A DNA stretch of 64,000 bases from NCBI RefSeq assembly GCF_003268815.1, contig NZ_QLSV01000006.1, positions 1-64,000 of the forward strand. The letters run 5' to 3'. The DNA comes from Flavobacterium lacus (GTDB lineage: Bacteria > Bacteroidota > Bacteroidia > Flavobacteriales > Flavobacteriaceae). Each line of letters opens with the position of its first letter. Within the stretch, counting starts at the first letter, position 1. The translations under genes and the position numbers were made by a program. This document shows, piece after piece, positions 23,328-31,742 of the stretch. Under the pieces are notes generated by a model, which was given only the letters and a program-made list of their open reading frames with translations, made no database searches and was not told the DNA's origin.

Positions 23328-24701
23328 TTATTTCACAACCAATTTACTCGTAAAACTACCGCCATTTAGTTCTTCCACCGAAACAAAATATAATCCCGGA
23401 GAAAGGTTATCTATGCTAACCGTAGTCGACTCTAAATTATCCATTTTTTTGATGGTCACTCTTTTTCCCATCGAATCATAAATAGATAGTTCATATAAAT
23501 TCAACAGATTAGCGTTTTTGATGGTAAATGAATTTTCAGCCGGATTAGGGTATATACTCAACCCATTTTGCTCAAAATCATTAGTGCTCAAGCTTGTGTC
23601 AATAATTCTAGAAACAATTCCGTTTGAAATTCCGGCCACATATAATTCGCCGTTTATATCTTCTCCAAAACTGGTAAAGTTTCCGCCGAAAGCACTTGTC
23701 CAAGTAATGGTTCCTCCATTATTTCCCACCCAGCCAATTCGGTTGGAGCAATAGTCTGCAAAAAAATATTTTCCCACCATATTTGAATACGTAGTACCAC
23801 GATAAACATAGCCTCCTGTAATCGAACAATTACCACTTCCCAGATTATAGTTGGCTACCGGCATGAAATAATTTGATGCACTTTGACACCCATTTGTATT
23901 GTAGGGGATATTAGCCTCATAACAACGCCATCCAAAGTTCAGTCCAGCGGTAAGTGGAGCACTAACTTTATTGATTTCTTCACGTTCATTTTGACCAACA
24001 TCGGCAATCCATAAATCGCCTGTTTGGGTATCAAAAGAAAATTTCCAAGGATTTCTCATTCCCACACCCCAAATTTCATCTGCACCGGCTACACCCACGT
24101 ACGGATTATCTGCTGGAATTGCATAGCCTGATTCAACATCCACATCAATACGAAGCATTTTTCCTAACAAAGAGTTGATGTTTTGACCGTAATTATCCGG
24201 GTCGCCACCACTTCCGCCGTCGCCCATTCCAATATATAAATAACCATCGGGACCAAAATTAAGTGAACCGCCATTGTGATTAGAAAAAGGCTGAGCAATA
24301 GTTAATAAAACTTCTGCACTTGCAGGATTGGCTATGTTAGGGTCGGTGGTGCTTACGGTGTATTTTGCAATCACGGTAGCACCATCACCAGAGCGTGTAT
24401 AGTTAACATAAAAACGACCATTCGTGGCATAATCAGGGTGAAAAGCCAAGCCCAACAAACCGCGTTCTCCGCCTGCTGTAATGATAGATGATAAGGATAA
24501 AAATGGCGTGGTGTTGATGGTTCCGTTTGCATTGACAATACGGATTAAACCGCCTCGTTGCACCACAAATAAACGGGAATCACCTGCATTCACAATAGCA
24601 ACCGGACTCGAAAAACCGGAAGCAAATGTTTGCAGAGCAATTGTTTGCGAGAAAACACTCGACGCAAACAGTAAAACACCTAATTGTAGAATTTTTTTCA
24701 T
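23328..24701 (-). CDS. secreted PQQ-type sugar dehydrogenase (GSDH fold) with T9SS sorting domain
   Basis: 457 residues. A signal peptide (MKKILQLGVLLFASSVFSQ) is followed by a glucose/sorbosone dehydrogenase beta-propeller (about 25-365) with GGERGLLGLAFHPDYATNGR, YLYIGMGDGGSGGDPDNYGQ, DEIWGVGMRNPWKFSFD, DVGQNEREEI and GGYVYRG. The final 80 residues are a type A Por sorting domain (LSIYPNPAENSF, SPGLYFVSV, KLVVK). It should be exported across the outer membrane by T9SS and oxidise extracellular sugars or related alcohols. PQQ dependence is inferred from family only. The gene stands alone. Confidence 0.87.
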   Translation of the reverse strand: MKKILQLGVLLFASSVFSQTIALQTFASGFSSPVAIVNAGDSRLFVVQRGGLIRIVNANGTINTTPFLSLSSIITAGGERGLLGLAFHPDYATNGRFYVNYTRSGDGATVIAKYTVSTTDPNIANPASAEVLLTIAQPFSNHNGGSLNFGPDGYLYIGMGDGGSGGDPDNYGQNINSLLGKMLRIDVDVESGYAIPADNPYVGVAGADEIWGVGMRNPWKFSFDTQTGDLWIADVGQNEREEINKVSAPLTAGLNFGWRCYEANIPYNTNGCQSASNYFMPVANYNLGSGNCSITGGYVYRGTTYSNMVGKYFFADYCSNRIGWVGNNGGTITWTSAFGGNFTSFGEDINGELYVAGISNGIVSRIIDTSLSTNDFEQNGLSIYPNPAENSFTIKNANLLNLYELSIYDSMGKRVTIKKMDNLESTTVSIDNLSPGLYFVSVEELNGGSFTSKLVVK

Positions 24702-24772: not shown

Positions 24773-24807
24773 AAAAAAAACCACCCCAAATTACTTCAAG
24801 GTGGTTT
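24773..24807 (-). terminator. intrinsic terminator of the vWA/toroid unit
   Basis: On the minus strand AAACCACC pairs with GGTGGTTT around a 14-nt loop and is followed by a run of eight T. It lies 20 nt after the stop codon of the vWA gene. Confidence 0.8.
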
Positions 24808-24826: not shown

Positions 24827-25990
24827 TTAATTCACCACTTTATAGCCTTTTGCTTTGGCAAAACTGTGAATAGAACTTGCCATGGCATTGCCTAAATCGT
24901 CTTGCGAGGCGGTATTTTTAGATTCGTTGTCAATAAATTCTTGTCGCTTTTTGGCCAGTTCCGCCATTTCTTTCTGAATGGTTTCGCGTTCTTTTGCCTT
25001 TTGAGTCACAATGGTTTTTATTTCTTCTTTCGATTTGTTTTTAAGCTCCGCCGGAAGTTCTTCGGGTTTAAGTTTTTCAATTGCTTTATCGTCTTTTTTG
25101 GCTTTATCCACTAAATCCCAACTGTCGTTTTTATATACTTCTTTCGATTTACTCACGGAACGCTCGGCATAATTGGCTCCGGATATCGATTGAGCATTGG
25201 CATCTTGCACTTCTTGGCTTCTTTTTTTCTCGATTCCTTTCGAACCGTAGCCAATGTAGGTGGTGTTTAACCGCACATTGCATTGCGAAATCTGATCGTC
25301 ATACGGCGTCACGATGTAACGAACTTTGGCGTTGTAATCAATGTTGAAGTATTTTCCTTTGCCAACATCGGCACCGTCTTTCCAAAAAGTAGCAATGCCT
25401 TCGGCGGCGTTGCCACAGAAAATGGTATTGATAAAAATGTCTTTTTTCGAGGCATCGGCAATGGCTTCTTTATAGTTAACGCCACCTTGATTAAAGGGTT
25501 CGTTACCGGCAATATACACGAGTTTCATGCTTTTTTGATTATCGTCCCAGGTCAATTTATCAGAAGCTTCTTTAATTACGGCTCCGCAGTATTCGCTTCC
25601 GCCATTGGTTCGCAGGGCAAATAATTGTTCTGAAATTAAATCTAAATCAGTAGTTAACGGCGTGATTTGTCGAATGTAATTGGATTGCAGACTCAATCCG
25701 CTGTTGCCGTATTCGTATAATGCAATTTGAATTTCGGGACTTTTGCCTTCGTATTTTAATGTGGTTAATGTGTTGACGATGTTCCATAAACGCGATTTGG
25801 CTTGTTCGATCAAACCATCCATACTGGAGGACGTGTCTAACAATAAAGCGACTTGAATTTTGGTGTCGGTTGTTGCAACCATCGTTGGTTCCGGTTGTTG
25901 ATTGATCGCTAAAGTTTCTTTTTTGTTCTCGCAATTGCTAAACAGCAAGCAAGACGATAAAAGGGTTAAGGTTAAAATTAGATTTTTCAT
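24827..25990 (-). CDS. vWA-domain lipoprotein
   Basis: 387 residues. A lipoprotein signal ends at Cys14 (LLSSC) or, more likely, Cys20 (LFSNC followed by ENKKE). Residues about 45-240 form a von Willebrand factor A domain with an intact metal site: DTSSSMDG, the threonine of LRTNGGSEYCGAV, and YIAGNEPFNQGG. Residues about 290-385 are a charged helical, probably coiled-coil tail (KLKPEELPAELKNKSKEEIK). The protein is anchored to a membrane and probably binds another protein through a bound metal ion. It is the second gene of a two-gene operon, 27 nt after the toroid gene. The partner and the process are unknown. Confidence 0.82.
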   Translation of the reverse strand: MKNLILTLTLLSSCLLFSNCENKKETLAINQQPEPTMVATTDTKIQVALLLDTSSSMDGLIEQAKSRLWNIVNTLTTLKYEGKSPEIQIALYEYGNSGLSLQSNYIRQITPLTTDLDLISEQLFALRTNGGSEYCGAVIKEASDKLTWDDNQKSMKLVYIAGNEPFNQGGVNYKEAIADASKKDIFINTIFCGNAAEGIATFWKDGADVGKGKYFNIDYNAKVRYIVTPYDDQISQCNVRLNTTYIGYGSKGIEKKRSQEVQDANAQSISGANYAERSVSKSKEVYKNDSWDLVDKAKKDDKAIEKLKPEELPAELKNKSKEEIKTIVTQKAKERETIQKEMAELAKKRQEFIDNESKNTASQDDLGNAMASSIHSFAKAKGYKVVN

Positions 25991-26017
25991 ACTGTTGGAT
26001 TTATAAGTTAATTAAAA

Positions 26018-27340
26018 TTATTTTTGAAGTGTGTTGATTTCGTTTTCCACCGAAAGAATCATCAAACACGTAGCCGTGCAAAACGCAGGACTGGTGATGC
26101 AGTGATGACCGTTCCAGCTGCCGTCTGCATTTTGAATTTGCATCATTCGCCCACCGATATTGTCGTACCATTTTTTCCAATCGTCGTCTTGGTTCACAAT
26201 CATTGACTCGCCGGTTTGAAGGAAGCTTAGGAATTCTTCGCCGCCGTTGTTGCCAAAACCGGATAACACATCTTCTTTCATGGCGGTTACTTTTGCCGAT
26301 TGATAGACTTTGTTGGCCACATCATACGACTTTGCTTTTTCTTTTGAATAGCCTAAACGTTCTAAATTTTGTTCGTTTAAAACCGCATCGCGTTCAATTT
26401 TACCTTCTGCTTTGGCTTTTTTAAAGAGTTGATCGGCTTCTTTGGCTTCTTCGGCACTGTTTCTCACCGAACTGCTCACGGCATAGAGCATGATTCCGGC
26501 TCCGTCTTCGGTTTTAGCTGATTCGCTCTGCGGGTTGTAATTGCTTTTTTGATATTCTCTGGCTTGCTGAATTTTTGCTTTATCTACTTTGATGTCTTTA
26601 TTTTTAGATGCCATTTCTAAACCCGAATTCGCAAAAGACGATTGCAAAACGCCTGCCCAACCGGATCCTCCCACTTTGCCGGAATCGCCCATTGATTTTT
26701 CAATCTTATCAACACAAACTTGAATGCCGTCTTTCACTCTTGTTTTCATTGATTCGTCTTTTATTGTTGGAAGCAATTGATTAAAGAATTGCAAGGTGAG
26801 AATGGCATCAATGTGTTCGCCTAATTTTCCCTGAATTTGTGTTCCTCTTATTTGTGTGATGTAAGGGGAGTTTTGGTTTTTATCGATTTCATTCAATAGA
26901 AATAAAACCGATTTTTTAAGGGTTTCTTTGTGCTCGCCTTTTTCCATTGAAAAACCACAACGGTACAACGCCATCGCCGACATAGCTGTAGTGGCAGGAT
27001 CGGAAGATACAGCGTGCGGATTTCTTTCTTTTTGATTGTTTCGGGAACCGGCTCCCCAACCGCCATCGGGATTTTGGGCTTGAATGAGCCATAATTCGCC
27101 TTTGGAGATGGTTTCTTCAAATTTCTTGCTTGATTTTACAACGGCAGCACCTTCAACGGATTGTTCGCCCATTAAGGACATAAAAACACAGGGTTTTTCA
27201 TCGTCTTCCACAATTTTCCGTTGAGCGATTTCTTTTTTGGGAAGCAATTCTTTTGTTGGTTCAGAATCATTTCCCAACAAATAAATAAACGGAACACAAC
27301 TTACTAAAGCAGATATTCCTAGCATGATTTTTGTTTTCAT
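26018..27340 (-). CDS. alpha/alpha-toroid (prenyltransferase/squalene-cyclase-like repeat) protein
   Basis: 440 residues with an N-terminal hydrophobic segment (LVSC at residues 12-15 could be a lipobox, or it is a membrane anchor). The rest shows terpenoid-cyclase-like toroid repeats: LIQAQNPDGGWGAGSR near 80-95, a DPATTAMSAMALYRCGF helix, and MQIQNADGSWNGHHCITSPA with FCTATCLMIL near the end. The DxDD or DCTAE catalytic motifs of squalene-hopene cyclases are not seen, so a non-terpene role is likely. A lysine/glutamate-rich insert occupies about 255-330. It is the first gene of a pair with the vWA lipoprotein and is divergent from a two-component system. Confidence 0.75.
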   Translation of the reverse strand: MKTKIMLGISALVSCVPFIYLLGNDSEPTKELLPKKEIAQRKIVEDDEKPCVFMSLMGEQSVEGAAVVKSSKKFEETISKGELWLIQAQNPDGGWGAGSRNNQKERNPHAVSSDPATTAMSAMALYRCGFSMEKGEHKETLKKSVLFLLNEIDKNQNSPYITQIRGTQIQGKLGEHIDAILTLQFFNQLLPTIKDESMKTRVKDGIQVCVDKIEKSMGDSGKVGGSGWAGVLQSSFANSGLEMASKNKDIKVDKAKIQQAREYQKSNYNPQSESAKTEDGAGIMLYAVSSSVRNSAEEAKEADQLFKKAKAEGKIERDAVLNEQNLERLGYSKEKAKSYDVANKVYQSAKVTAMKEDVLSGFGNNGGEEFLSFLQTGESMIVNQDDDWKKWYDNIGGRMMQIQNADGSWNGHHCITSPAFCTATCLMILSVENEINTLQK

Positions 27341-27374
27341 ATTGTATTGATTTTGATTGTTATTAATTTTTTTG

Positions 27375-27431
27375 GCCGCTGATTCGCTGATTATTTTTGA
27401 TGATATGCTAAAAAATCAGTGAATCAGTGGC
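27375..27431. repeat. inverted repeat in the divergent promoter region
   Basis: GCCGCTGATTCGCTGATT (27375-27392) and AATCAGTGAATCAGTGGC (27414-27431) are inverted copies differing at two positions. Each arm contains two CTGATTC-like octamers. It may be a dyad operator, a hairpin in the leader of the minus-strand gene, or a repeat element. Confidence 0.6.
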
Positions 27432-27510
27432 TATTTTTATCATCTGTAAAAAATGATTTTGTTTTTATTTTTTGATAAAATTACTTGACAAGACAATTCA
27501 ACTTTGATCC

Positions 27511-27542
27511 ACTTGGTGAAACCCATTTCTGACTTGGTGAAA
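27511..27542 (+). promoter_or_regulatory. paired direct repeats, candidate LytTR operator
   Basis: ACTTGGTGAAA occurs at 27511-27521 and again at 27532-27542, a start-to-start distance of 21 bp, or two helical turns. LytTR-type regulators typically bind two short direct repeats with this phasing. The site lies about 55 bp upstream of the sensor kinase start. It is shared with the divergent toroid/vWA unit, so autoregulation and control of that unit are both possible. Confidence 0.5.
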
Positions 27543-27595
27543 TCGTTTTTTAAACCCGATTTTATTTTCGTACTTTACACTATAATATAAATGAG

Positions 27596-29395
27596 ATGTA
27601 TAATCGACTGAAAATAATACTGTTTGCTTTGCTTTTTCCTTTGGTGATGGTGGCTCAAGACACTACTAAAACCAAATTGGGAAAAACTTCGGTGAGCAAA
27701 AAAGCCATTGAACTGAAGGAAACTTTATCAGAAAGTAATCCTACTGCCACAGCGGATAAATATGTGGAATTGGCTAACGAGTTGGATAAAAAAGGTGATT
27801 ACGCTAAAGCAGAAGATTATCTGAAAAGAGCTTTGCCGATTTATCAAAAGCAAAAGAATAAAGATAAAATAGCGAGTACAACACGTTCGATTGCTCAAAT
27901 TCAGGAGAGGCAGAATAAAGTAAAAGAAGCCATTGTTAGTTATCAATCGGCGAGTGAAGAAGCGGTGGAAGTGGGTTATTCGAGGGTAAATTCGAATGAT
28001 GCGAGTCGTTTGCAGAACACCAATCCACGAGTTCAAGCGGATTATTTAGATTCCAATATTAAAATTTTAGAGAAGGAAGGTAAAAAGGAGGAAGCTGCCG
28101 AAGTCTATAAACAAAAAGCAGAAGTCGATTTAAAATCGGAAAACAAAGGCATGGCGATTGAAAATTATGAAAAAGCAATTGCCGTTTCTAAAGATAAACC
28201 GGAAGAAGTGCTAAAATTGAAAAGCGAGATTTCGAAAGTGTATGCTTCTGAAAACAATTTAGATAAAGCCATTGAAATTACGAAAAGCACGATTACCGAG
28301 GCAGAGAAACTAGGAAGTGTTTCACAACAAATTGAGCAACAGCAAACGTTGGCGGGTTTATATTTTAAAAATGAAAATCAAGACGATGCGATTGTTTTGT
28401 TGGAAGAAACGTATAATTTGGCATTAAAAAACGGGCGGACATTTGATGCGAAGAAAGCGATGTTGGCTCTTTCGGATTATTACAGACAACAAGGCAATCA
28501 AACGAAAGCGATTGAATTGTATGATAAATTTCTGAATGATTTTGATCGGATGGTGCAAGCGGATAGTTCATTGGTGGATTCAAAGATTTTTCAAGTTACC
28601 GAAGAAAAAATCAAACAATTGGAAAAAGAACGGGCTTTAAAAGATGAGTTGATTACCAAGAAAAATAAGTTCAATTATGTCTTGATTGGTTCGGTGATTT
28701 TGATGTTGATTTTATTGGGATTGATTGCAAAAGCGTTGTTTTCCATCAAAACCAAGAATAAAAAAATTGCTTTGCAATCGTTGCGGAGGGAAATGAATCC
28801 GCATTTTATTTTTAACAGTTTGAATAGTGTGAACCAATTTATTGCTCAAAATAATGAGTTGGAAGCCAATAAATATTTGACTTCGTATTCTAATTTGATG
28901 CGTAATATGATGGAAACATCGAACAAAGATTTTATTTCGTTATACAGCGAATTAGAGCAGATTAAGAAGTATTTGGATTTGGAACATTTGCGTTTTCAGG
29001 ACAAATTTGTTTATGAAATTGTGGTGGATGAAAAGTTGGATTCGGATGCGATTTTAGTCCCGAATATGTTGATTCAGCCGCATTTAGAAAACGCCATTTG
29101 GCACGGTTTGCGTTACCGAGAAACCATAGGAAAGTTGAAAGTAACTTTTGCGGAAGAAAATCAATTGATCAAAGTTTCAATTGAAGATGACGGTATTGGT
29201 GTCGAAAAAAGTCGCGAACTGAAAACACAAAATCAAAAAGTGCACGAATCCAGAGGCTTGAACAATGTGGAAGAACGGATTAATTTGCTGAACGATTTGT
29301 ATCATCAACAGATTTCGTATACCATTTCGTCGGGAACAGATGGAAACGGAACATTAGTCACGCTTTATTTTTCTAAAACCACTAAGCCAGCATGA
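27596..29395 (+). CDS. TPR-containing LytS-type sensor histidine kinase
   Basis: 599 residues: a signal peptide (1-21), an extracytoplasmic TPR array (about 45-335; YAKAEDYLKRALPIYQKQKN and QTKAIELYDKFLNDF), one membrane helix near 358-382, and a His_kinase (LytS-type) domain. The phospho-acceptor is His403 in REMNPHFIFNSLNSVNQFIA. The ATPase part follows with QPHLENAIWHGL and EDDGIGV. The TPR domain suggests sensing through protein contact rather than a small ligand. The stop overlaps the response regulator start by 4 nt (ATGA). It is divergent from the toroid/vWA pair. Confidence 0.9.
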   Translation: MYNRLKIILFALLFPLVMVAQDTTKTKLGKTSVSKKAIELKETLSESNPTATADKYVELANELDKKGDYAKAEDYLKRALPIYQKQKNKDKIASTTRSIAQIQERQNKVKEAIVSYQSASEEAVEVGYSRVNSNDASRLQNTNPRVQADYLDSNIKILEKEGKKEEAAEVYKQKAEVDLKSENKGMAIENYEKAIAVSKDKPEEVLKLKSEISKVYASENNLDKAIEITKSTITEAEKLGSVSQQIEQQQTLAGLYFKNENQDDAIVLLEETYNLALKNGRTFDAKKAMLALSDYYRQQGNQTKAIELYDKFLNDFDRMVQADSSLVDSKIFQVTEEKIKQLEKERALKDELITKKNKFNYVLIGSVILMLILLGLIAKALFSIKTKNKKIALQSLRREMNPHFIFNSLNSVNQFIAQNNELEANKYLTSYSNLMRNMMETSNKDFISLYSELEQIKKYLDLEHLRFQDKFVYEIVVDEKLDSDAILVPNMLIQPHLENAIWHGLRYRETIGKLKVTFAEENQLIKVSIEDDGIGVEKSRELKTQNQKVHESRGLNNVEERINLLNDLYHQQISYTISSGTDGNGTLVTLYFSKTTKPA

Positions 29396-30147
29396 ACGAT
29401 TTTCAAAAAATAAAAAGTGTCATTGTCGAAGATGAATCGGCTGCTCGCGAAGCGTTGAAAAATTACTTGGCCAAATATTGTCCGCAAATCGAAATCATTG
29501 GCGAAGCACAAAATAGTCGGGAAGCGATTCCGCTGTTGCACGAACTACAACCGCAATTGGTTTTTTTGGATGTAGAAATGCCGTTTGGCAATGCGTTTGA
29601 TGTGTTGGAAGGCTGCAAAGACTTGCATTTTGAAACCATTTTTGTCACCGCTTTTTCCGAATATTCGTTGAAAGCGTTGAACCAAAGTGCGGCGTATTAT
29701 TTGTTGAAACCCATCAGCATTGAAGAATTGATTTTGGCTGTAAACAAAGTCCAACAACAATTAATGAAGCAGGATTTGTTTAACCGAAATCAAATCATCG
29801 TACAAAACTTTCGCGAACCCAAAATCGAGAAGCAACAAGTCATTTTACCCACGTTAGAAGGATTTGAAGTGGTGAAAATGGAAGAAATCGTTCGTTTGCG
29901 TGGCAATGGCAACTTTACCGACATTCATCTGTCTGATGGAACCAAAAAAATGGTTTGTCGTTTTTTGAAACACTTTGATGAAATGTTAGATTTTCCGTTT
30001 ATGCGAGTGCATAAATCGCACATCATCAATTTGAATTTTGTGAAATCGTATCACAAATCGCTGGGCGGTTATGTCACGCTTTTTGATGAAACAGAGATTG
30101 AGATTTCGGTGGGTTATAAGGAGGAGTTTTTGAAGATGTTTAAATAA
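29392..30147 (+). CDS. LytTR-family response regulator
   Basis: 251 residues. The receiver domain (about 8-125) has acidic residues in IVEDES, phospho-acceptor Asp60 in VFLDVEMP, Thr/Ser in FVTAFSEYSL, and Lys in YLLKPIS. The C-terminal LytTR DNA-binding domain (about 150-250) shows VVKMEEIVRLRGNGNFTDIH and MRVHKSHIINLNFVKSY. It is translationally coupled to the kinase and is the obvious partner for the 21-bp-phased direct repeats upstream of the kinase gene. Confidence 0.92.
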   Translation: MNDFQKIKSVIVEDESAAREALKNYLAKYCPQIEIIGEAQNSREAIPLLHELQPQLVFLDVEMPFGNAFDVLEGCKDLHFETIFVTAFSEYSLKALNQSAAYYLLKPISIEELILAVNKVQQQLMKQDLFNRNQIIVQNFREPKIEKQQVILPTLEGFEVVKMEEIVRLRGNGNFTDIHLSDGTKKMVCRFLKHFDEMLDFPFMRVHKSHIINLNFVKSYHKSLGGYVTLFDETEIEISVGYKEEFLKMFK

Positions 30148-30210: not shown

Positions 30211-30477
30211 ATGATTAACTCCATATCCATAAAAGAAGTCAAAATCCAAATCGGACAACTTTGTAAGGCCAAAAGAAAGGAATTTAACCTTACCCGAGAA
30301 CAATTGGCAGATGCTTTGCAAATGTCGAGAGCTACCATTCAAAACATTGAAAGCGGCAAAAATGTAACTTTAGATAATTTACTCAAAATGGCCAATCATT
30401 TTCATTTGTTGGAAACTATTTTTGAAGGTGTTCAATCCTTAAAGCATTCTTCATCAGATCCACTTTCACTTTACTAA
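30211..30477 (+). CDS. hipB: HipB-like XRE antitoxin/repressor
   Basis: This 88-residue protein has a Cro/C1-type helix-turn-helix (LTREQLADALQMSRATIQNI, about 28-47, continuing ESGKNVTLDNLLKMANHF). Position directly ahead of a HipA-type kinase gene, a 2-nt gap, and an upstream nested dyad all fit the antitoxin that neutralises HipA and represses the operon. The C-terminal tail is short. Confidence 0.85.
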   Translation: MINSISIKEVKIQIGQLCKAKRKEFNLTREQLADALQMSRATIQNIESGKNVTLDNLLKMANHFHLLETIFEGVQSLKHSSSDPLSLY

Positions 30478-30479
30478 TT

Positions 30480-31742
30480 ATGGCAGCAACACCTTTAATA
30501 GCAGTAGATTTTTTTGGAATAGAAATTGGTAAATTGGGGTATGATGCTGATCAAAAAAAATGTTATTTTCAGTACAATGCTGAATTTTTAGATTCCGGAA
30601 AGTTTTCAAACGTATTTCCTTTTATTTTCAAACGCATTAAGCCCGTTCAGGTTTTTACCCAATTTGAAGGCGAAACATTTCGTGGGCTTCCACCGATGAT
30701 TGCCGATTCGTTACCCGATGTTTTTGGTAATATTATTTTTCAAGAATGGTTTTCGAGGAAAGAACCCAACAAAAAGATTTCGCCATTGGAGCAATTGACC
30801 TATGTTGCCAATCGAGGAATGGGAGCACTAGAATATCGTCCGATTCAAGATTTACCTGATTCAGCGGCTATTGATATCAACGAAATGGTGCAGGTACTTG
30901 AAAAAATAATGCAATTAAAAGAAGAAACTACTGAAAATGTGTTGAATGATTTAGCTTTGTTAAATATCTTCAAAATTGGAACTTCAGCGGGTGGAGCTAG
31001 ACCAAAAATTTTAATTGCAGAACATAAAAAAACGGGGCAAATCGTAGCAGGGGATAAACATTTTTCAACTGATTATTTTCATTATTTGGTTAAATTGCAT
31101 TTGCCTGAACAAGCTCCTTATCATCAGGAAAAGGTGGAATATGCTTATTATTTACTGGCTCAAAAGGCCGGAATAGAAATGATGCCTTCTAAATTGATTG
31201 ATAACAAACATTTTGCAACCCTTCGCTATGACAGAGAAAAAGGCGAAAAGCAACACGTATTAACTGCTTCCGGTTTAACCGGTTGGGATTTTACAAAACC
31301 GGAACAATCCAGTTATGAAAACGTGTTTAAATTGGCTGCTTCTTTAAAGGTGCCACACAAAGATTTACAAGAACTTTTTAAACGAATGGTTTTTAATTTG
31401 GTCTTTCAAAATATAGACGACCATTTAAAAAATCACAGTTTTATCTACAATAAAGAGGAGAATAATTGGCATTTAGCTCCGGCTTATGATGTGACGTTTG
31501 CTTTAAATCCGCTATTAAATTACACTTCTGTTTCAAGAGCGTTATCCATCAATAACAAACGTCAAAATATCAATTTAAAAGATGTTTTACTGATTGCAGA
31601 AGAATATGCGATTAAAAATCCAAAAGGAATTGTTGAAGAAATTGAAAAAGTCACTTCACATTGGCAATTGATTGCAAAAGAAGTAGAAATTTCAGAAAAA
31701 ATCATAACTAGGATTGAAAATGACTTTGTCAATTTGAGCTGA
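30480..31742 (+). CDS. hipA: HipA-family Ser/Thr kinase toxin
   Basis: This 420-residue full-length HipA-like kinase has the N1 domain (FGIEIGKLGYD; GLPPMIADSLPDVFGN), the conserved loop GTSAGGARPKILIAE, and kinase motifs FQNIDDHLKNHSFIY (catalytic Asp, about 308-322) and APAYDVTFALNP (metal Asp). E. coli HipA phosphorylates glutamyl-tRNA synthetase and halts translation; the target here is unknown. It forms a two-gene cassette with the HTH gene and ends 1 nt from the convergent radA stop codon. Confidence 0.88.
   Translation: MAATPLIAVDFFGIEIGKLGYDADQKKCYFQYNAEFLDSGKFSNVFPFIFKRIKPVQVFTQFEGETFRGLPPMIADSLPDVFGNIIFQEWFSRKEPNKKISPLEQLTYVANRGMGALEYRPIQDLPDSAAIDINEMVQVLEKIMQLKEETTENVLNDLALLNIFKIGTSAGGARPKILIAEHKKTGQIVAGDKHFSTDYFHYLVKLHLPEQAPYHQEKVEYAYYLLAQKAGIEMMPSKLIDNKHFATLRYDREKGEKQHVLTASGLTGWDFTKPEQSSYENVFKLAASLKVPHKDLQELFKRMVFNLVFQNIDDHLKNHSFIYNKEENNWHLAPAYDVTFALNPLLNYTSVSRALSINNKRQNINLKDVLLIAEEYAIKNPKGIVEEIEKVTSHWQLIAKEVEISEKIITRIENDFVNLS

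Follow-up and report, generated by a model that had tools for sequence, protein, structure and literature searches.

Layout of the divergent locus

We analysed a 64,000-nt stretch of Flavobacterium lacus DNA (contig NZ_QLSV01000006.1 of assembly GCF_003268815.1, positions 1-64,000 of the forward strand; genome 3.5 Mb), hereafter the window, in which the genes for a vWA-domain lipoprotein and an alpha/alpha-toroid protein lie divergent from those for a TPR-containing LytS-type kinase and a LytTR response regulator. The results pointed to this two-component system (TCS) and its vWA gene as an uncharacterised cell-envelope control system.

The sensor histidine kinase (27596..29395, + strand) matched Pfam TPR_12 (E 1.8e-17) and His_kinase PF06580 (E 2.3e-20). 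Its topology, as predicted from sequence, consists of a signal peptide, extracytoplasmic TPRs to about residue 320, one transmembrane segment at about residues 360-380 and a LytS-type kinase domain. The motifs NPHF (with H403), PHLEN (the N-box) and DDGIG were all present, as in LytS-type kinases, and HATPase_c scored below its cut-off. Its 25 Pfam matches with E values up to 1 included no multi-transmembrane LytS sensor family, a difference that separates the kinase from the BtsS/LytS subfamily in its sensor. The regulator gene (29392..30147, + strand) overlapped the kinase gene by 4 nt, and its product combined a receiver (Response_reg PF00072, E 8.1e-16; phosphoacceptor D60) with a LytTR domain at residues 159-250 (PF04397, E 3.5e-11). 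Two PADLOC matches to anti-phage defence were weak and short, lay inside the TPR and receiver parts, and were rejected. PMC10197871 (available part) reports a LytTR mutation in Flavobacterium, with an effect that is not known, in a gene not matched to the regulator of the window.

On the opposite strand, the gene for the toroid protein (26018..27340, - strand, 440 aa), a putative accessory effector predicted to be secreted or N-terminally anchored, was followed after 27 nt by that for the vWA lipoprotein (24827..25990, - strand, 387 aa; lipobox read from sequence), the putative core effector. The initial annotation had described this divergent four-gene arrangement, and the gene and domain calls agreed with it. 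It had also given the operon a terminator of its own. A hairpin resembling a terminator and followed through by a T tract was indeed present 3' of the vWA gene (24778..24807, - strand), but the scan found 6 sites of this kind in the region where shuffled sequences averaged 7.1, which is no excess.

Between the divergent genes lies the candidate LytTR operator, the direct repeat ACTTGGTGAAA-N10-ACTTGGTGAAA (27511..27542, + strand), which reads TTTCACCAAGT on the operon strand. The 11-bp repeats began at 27511 and 27532, a distance of exactly 21 bp, and no further exact copy occurred in the window. A predicted -7 box of the toroid-vWA promoter, TAATTTTA (27476..27483, - strand), was 29 bp from the repeat pair, with an inferred start at about 27471. 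On the kinase side, a predicted -7-like element GTACTTTA (27570..27577, + strand) gave an inferred start at about 27582; this element, which is weak in this clade, fell outside the kinase-side pattern that we used. The -7 consensus is TANNTTTG in Flavobacterium johnsoniae (PMC6847099, available part) and in F. psychrophilum (PMC9723704, available part).

Conservation of the repeat pair and promoter elements

At one mismatch, ACTTGGTGAAA matched 4 sites in the window, a number reached in 26 of 100 shuffles. As this count was not above chance, the evidence lies in the pairing of the repeats and their conservation and not in the single 11-mer. The pair had one exact match in the whole genome and one further match at 3 mismatches.

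We assembled the regions upstream of kinase orthologs from loci L008-L041, L072-L091 and L120-L139 together with the window, and dropped loci that did not have both a kinase and a vWA match. Five loci in which the kinase match began past residue 60 (L126, L128, L129, L130, and L135) were omitted. The first four of these come from other genera of the same family and have diverged kinases; L126 and L128 were re-read with the diverged-regulator set below, and no repeat was reported for L129 and L130 in the upstream-region reading. The final 43 regions came from the genus, three other families and metagenome-assembled genomes (MAGs), with kinase identities to the window of 38-100%, and held 37 distinct operator sequences (the contigs L017 and L007, and L028 and L006, are duplicates).

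The repeat pair was found at exactly 21 bp in 41 of the 43 regions. The same half-sites at any other spacing from 12 to 30 occurred in 0 or 1 of 43, and shuffles gave a mean of 0.005 and a maximum of 1. The two misses (L011 and L123) were one-base variants with unchanged spacing. On the operon side, a TAnnTTT[G/A] box followed the repeat in 42/43 loci, at 29 bp in 38 and at 30 bp in 4 (mononucleotide shuffles: mean 0.2, maximum 3), and 28 loci fitted TAnnTTTG strictly. A weaker -7-like element was present on the kinase side, 27-28 bp from the repeat, in 33/43; the ten exceptions were the window and its clade. The direct repeats reported in the initial annotation were thus both present and conserved in relatives, about two helical turns apart at the promoter of the presumed target.

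We also searched 299 genomes of the genus with a strict form of the repeat pattern. All 46 exact matches were upstream of the kinase on its strand and none were elsewhere; at one mismatch, 21 matches were upstream of the kinase and 26 elsewhere. With up to one mismatch, 56 of 62 kinase genomes had a match upstream of the kinase. The 21-bp repeats in 41/43 loci and these kinase-linked matches across the genus suggest that this LytTR regulator very probably controls the operon and sets its level, as had been proposed.

Co-occurrence of the kinase, vWA and toroid genes

In the same 299 genomes, the kinase (E <= 1e-120) was found in 62, the vWA protein in 59 and the toroid in 10. The kinase and vWA occurred together in 56 genomes, with 6 having the kinase only, 3 vWA only and 234 neither (Fisher's test, 7e-50; all co-occurrence counts and Fisher tests are raw and uncorrected for phylogeny). 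All 55 pairs on the same contig were divergent. All 10 toroid genomes carried both the kinase and vWA, and only 10 of the 59 vWA genomes carried the toroid. The co-occurrence set as a test in the initial annotation was thus far above chance within the genus for the kinase and vWA (56 of 62 kinase genomes). The vWA/toroid pair did not stand as a unit, vWA being constant, although every toroid genome of the genus had vWA.

In a family sample of 159 genomes (about one per genus), the toroid was found in 16 and vWA in 73, one of them weak (G828, 4.3e-19). vWA was present in 15 of the 16 toroid genomes versus 58 of the 143 others (Fisher's test, 6e-5). In a phylum sample, vWA was found in 48/395 genomes.

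A toroid profile scan of named genomes gave 34 loci, and the nearest named relatives of the window's toroid were from Flavobacterium species. vWA followed the toroid in 19/34, and a divergent kinase lay upstream in 18 of these, the exception being a fragmentary MAG contig (L039). The other 15 loci, mostly from marine Flavobacteriaceae genera, showed no kinase or vWA homolog in the fetched flanks, the open reading frames (ORFs) of which were read in 7/15. All 15 genomes held a vWA match elsewhere, weak or partial in G715, G716 and G718. In 8 of nine vWA loci from these genomes, a related LytS-type kinase and a LytTR regulator were divergent from vWA or from the gene before it (the comparison covered the kinase outside its TPR part). 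As many such marine-type vWA loci sit at contig ends, we searched seven of them for tRNA genes and three of these for Rfam families at gathering scores, and found none.

Variable partners and neighbouring genes

Of the 49 vWA loci of the genus without a toroid, 20 were fetched. The kinase was divergent beside vWA in 18 (exceptions L088 and L089); in L075 the contig ends inside the kinase gene. MuiA/DUF4139 adjoined vWA in 16 of the 20. Other operon members were a secreted rhodanese (L016, L020, and L037; Pfam on L037), SIMPL (L023 and L149 by Pfam; L086, L141, and L147 by similarity) and YkuD_2 L,D-transpeptidase-like proteins (L078 and L141 by Pfam; L085 and L147-L149 by similarity). The partner genes sat between the divergent promoters or after vWA. 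Outside the genus, some of the loci showed similar sets: the TCS was found with SIMPL and vWA in L120-L122, with rhodanese, MuiA, SIMPL and vWA in L123, and with vWA alone or after another gene in L124-L126. What these loci have in common is thus a secreted vWA protein together with the TCS, and the toroid belongs to a group of partners that vary.

The genome of the window held one YkuD_2 protein, on another contig. Five matches to MuiA elsewhere in this genome were confined to query residues 293-399, a SusC/RagA plug-like insertion, and since all five fell in this stretch we count no MuiA as found there. Such an insertion was seen in the MuiA/DUF4139 protein at L006:11121-12923, which has a SusC/RagA-type TonB plug domain mid-protein at residues ~295-398. 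A rhodanese-like ORF (L133:7547-8011, by eye) adjoined a distant vWA relative with no TCS genes nearby. In L126, L128 and L154-L160, the gene that followed vWA was presumably PorP/SprF-like and often stood close to the contig end.

Beyond the hairpin, a glucose/sorbosone dehydrogenase-like (GSDH) gene with a type IX secretion tail (23328..24701, - strand; Pfam and NCBIfam) was syntenic in 19/19 toroid-vWA loci and 15/20 toroid-less vWA loci of the genus, and its membership in the regulon is putative. Directly 3' of the regulator lies a HipB-like helix-turn-helix and HipA-like pair (window 30211-31742); many relatives have transglycosylase or other genes there.

Duplication, loss and divergence of the repeats

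Two repeat pairs were present in 11 genomes; in ten of these they were separated by about 1.1-1.2 kb, and in G114 by 375 bp. We read three of the 11 in detail (for G125, positions only). In L147 and L149, a SIMPL gene lay between vWA and the kinase, and one repeat copy preceded vWA while the other stood between SIMPL and the kinase; in L148 (from G114), no gene was left between vWA and the kinase and both copies were kept. In these three genomes, each of the 6 copies was accompanied on the operon side by a -7 box at 29 bp, and a kinase-type element stood at the usual distance only at the kinase-proximal copy. Doubling was not general: a single copy was found in L016, L020, L023, L037, and L086, where rhodanese or SIMPL heads the operon.

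Three genomes (G113, G189, and G244) had no kinase ortholog, and here vWA-MuiA-GSDH was kept and the repeat was absent. This loss of the TCS may be one event.

We further read nine intergenic regions whose regulators were 39-44% identical to that of the window, in which a CTCATT-like 21-bp repeat appeared to take the place of ACCAAGT. A blind 10-mer repeat test found 21-bp repeats in 4/9 (L154, L155, L156, and L159). A loose CTCA-type pattern, written post hoc after the blind test, matched 8/9, with no match in L128. The TAnnTTTN box was at 29 bp in 6/9, and L154 and L159 had the repeat without a box at that distance. By contrast with these half-sites, L153, with a 70% identical regulator, had the original type. 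Where the regulator has diverged, relatives thus appear to have retained the 21-bp phase but to use different half-sites.

Properties of the vWA and toroid proteins

The vWA protein matched VWA PF00092 (E 1.7e-6), and its model (mean pLDDT 74) showed an integrin I-like domain into which a helical segment is inserted at about residues 231-359; both integrin I-like and BatB folds matched it in the structure search. No solved relative was found by sequence profile at E up to 0.01. The metal-ion-dependent adhesion site motifs DTSSS (residues 52-56) and T128 were present, but the canonical TDG was absent, with IAGNE at its place, so the earlier description of the domain as metal-site-competent holds only in part. 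A profile comparison with canonical vWA aligned the first part of the domain only, short of the TDG region. G319 lacks the usual vWA, and there the TCS and its repeat face a different, canonical vWA protein of 469 aa (L146:8001-9410).

The toroid protein matched SQHop_cyclase_C (E 2e-6), and its model (mean pLDDT 81; the first 64 residues lie outside it) showed an (alpha/alpha)6 toroid. The structure search returned 8pak (Z 21.9, root-mean-square deviation 3.5, 285 aligned residues), with squalene-hopene cyclase and glycosidase toroids both at Z ~22. A motif scan found two QW-like motifs and neither DxDD nor GCGEQ, in line with the initial annotation of a toroid without cyclase catalytic motifs. 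We rejected a terpene cyclase, since DxDD is absent and the fold search scored cyclases, glycosidases and AprG alike, and also a thioester protein of the alpha-2-macroglobulin/complement type, since GCGEQ is absent (Pfam TED: E 0.0045, 16.6 bits against a cut-off of 22). In the family alignment (A4), the C-terminal end was a near-invariant GSWNGHHCITSxxFCTA, and a CVFM-GEQS-like N-terminal motif lay outside the folded toroid. The latter was absent in L041, a Pirellulaceae toroid (L041:9890-12055) that shares the C-terminal motif; the ORF after it is also toroid-like by eye.

Proposed mechanism and alternative explanations

The best reading of the locus is an autoregulated envelope two-component system, to which we give a probability of roughly 0.7. 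The extracytoplasmic TPR domain of the kinase would sense the state of the envelope, and the kinase would phosphorylate the LytTR regulator, as its domains suggest. A contact of the TPR domain with a vWA/toroid complex, as put forward in the initial annotation, is hypothetical. The regulator would then bind the two repeats on one face of the DNA, 21 bp being two turns, a step that the conserved phase strongly supports. Bound regulator would activate the operon promoter, with its -7 box 29 bp away, and probably also its own promoter on the opposite side. The output would be a secreted or lipid-anchored set of proteins, nearly always the vWA lipoprotein plus variable partners: the toroid in the window, and SIMPL, rhodanese, L,D-transpeptidase-like YkuD_2 or MuiA/DUF4139 in relatives.

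The job of the set would most likely be envelope maintenance under stress, with vWA as a binding or scaffolding part, as judged from the partner families. We favour envelope maintenance because the effectors look secreted or lipid-anchored from their sequences, because transpeptidase-like and SIMPL proteins are among the partners, and because MuiA responds to stress in Pseudomonas, where osmotic shock and D-cycloserine lead to its overexpression (PMC10418997, a review, available part). We put envelope homeostasis as the role of the module at about even odds.

Several observations weigh against the autoregulated envelope system. The envelope-stress role draws on partner families of which several are of unknown function, and the loci are related, so the counts are not independent. 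Six kinase genomes lacked vWA by profile A3, which shows that the TCS can persist without this vWA. Among them, G125 keeps SIMPL, YkuD_2 and MuiA, and G319 has another vWA protein; G033, G141, G213, and G231 have lower-scoring kinases without the operon. Outside the genus, 9 of 20 fetched vWA loci (L127, L131-L134, and L136-L139) had no kinase or close regulator nearby by tblastn, with a distant partial regulator-like match only in L127 and L134; the coupling of the TCS to vWA therefore weakens with distance. The strict repeat pattern was missing from 6/62 kinase genomes (G033, G141, G213, G231, G219, and G278), of which G278 (L075) carries both half-site types, but in swapped order, and G033 (L142) has a relaxed-pattern copy ~470 bp upstream of the kinase. 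A reversed control pattern gave ~104 matches at up to one mismatch in the 299 genomes (a hand count with mismatch classes pooled), so the one-mismatch hits away from the kinase are within background. Finally, in the clade of the window itself, the -7 element on the side of the kinase is a poor one.

The alternative that survives best is that the operon belongs to a nutrient-acquisition or periplasmic redox pathway, with a dehydrogenase, a rhodanese and a toroid enzyme, and not to envelope maintenance. The synteny of GSDH (19/19 toroid-vWA and 15/20 toroid-less loci), the rhodanese in some loci and the glycosidases among toroid folds agree with it. However, GSDH lies beyond the terminator-like hairpin in the window, is missing in 5/20 toroid-less loci and is displaced in L082, and to our knowledge vWA, SIMPL, YkuD_2 and DUF4139 match no known catabolic route. 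We consider this pathway unlikely.

Repression of the operon by the regulator is somewhat less likely still. The repeat ends ~41 bp upstream of the inferred operon start, outside the -33/-7 region, and ACC-type repeats two turns apart at this distance give a geometry that resembles activated LytTR promoters (PMC6193735, available part). From this geometry, the regulator probably activates the operon.

It is also improbable that the repeats only autoregulate the TCS genes, with the vWA-toroid operon a bystander held by synteny. Known LytTR systems do autoregulate (PMC6193735, available part), and 33/43 loci have the kinase-side element 27-28 bp away. Against this, the operon-side box is better conserved (42/43), a second copy stands directly upstream of vWA in the three two-copy genomes examined, and the repeat is absent from the three vWA loci that lost the TCS. 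Equally doubtful is a vWA-toroid receptor-ligand pair in the envelope that would bind as the human CR3 I domain does the C3d toroid, with assembly of the bacterial pair monitored by the TPR sensor and LytTR feedback. The solved CR3 I domain-C3d pair (4m76) was among the structure-search matches of the vWA model, and the toroid was nearly never found without vWA (15/16, family sample) even with the genes far apart. Use of the 21-bp repeats by another DNA-binding protein is very improbable, as the repeat tracks the TCS across 299 genomes and the half-site letters appear to shift along with regulator divergence at constant phase.

The autoregulated envelope system would be a candidate Bacteroidota envelope-control system with base-level predictions for the operator, its phase, the -7 box, the starts and a second half-site specificity. 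It would place vWA, SIMPL, MuiA/DUF4139, YkuD_2 and toroid proteins of unclear role under one regulator, and for this reason their functions can be sought jointly.

Comparison with known systems

No description of this locus was found in literature covered by titles and the starts of abstracts, with subscription journals mostly outside the coverage. The BatA/BatB proteins of Bacteroides share the vWA fold (BatB 3ibs, Z 17.9, root-mean-square deviation 2.5 over 174 residues), but the vWA of the window is a lipoprotein with a helical insertion and without TDG, and no MoxR ATPase or BatA/BatB neighbour was found among the 7 window proteins scanned with Pfam. Squalene-hopene and terpene cyclases share the (alpha/alpha)6 toroid and QW-like motifs and were the only PDB sequence-profile matches of the toroid (59 residues, best E 2e-7); the toroid differs in lacking DxDD and in its own near-invariant C-terminus, GSW-GHHCITS--FCTA.

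BtsS/BtsR and AgrC/AgrA likewise combine a PF06580 kinase with a receiver-LytTR regulator and paired direct repeats at the target promoter. The BtsR model was the best NCBIfam match of the regulator, but below its cut-off (106 versus 246 bits). The kinase here differs in its extracytoplasmic TPRs and one transmembrane segment, as read from sequence. The targets of BtsS/BtsR and AgrC/AgrA are a transporter or quorum-sensing gene, whereas the divergent target here is the vWA operon.

In the SbrI-MuiA system of Pseudomonas, a MuiA/DUF4139 protein is likewise under a dedicated envelope regulator (PMC10418997, available part). There it is an extracytoplasmic function (ECF) sigma factor, whereas here it is a LytTR TCS, and no MuiA was found in the genome of the window.

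The LytTR Regulatory Systems (LRS; HdrRM, BrsRM and LRS-like operons of Bacteroides) differ in that the window locus has a receiver and a kinase and no membrane inhibitor, which sets it outside the LRS. In addition, the ACC of the proximal repeat lies 34 bp from the -7 box in the window and 45 bp from it in a Bacteroides example (PMC6193735, available part). The precedent in the same source is otherwise close: LytTR repeats 11-13 bp apart with a period of ~21 bp, many of them starting with ACC, stand just upstream of the promoter and are autoregulatory, and a TATCTTTG box likewise serves in those from Bacteroides.

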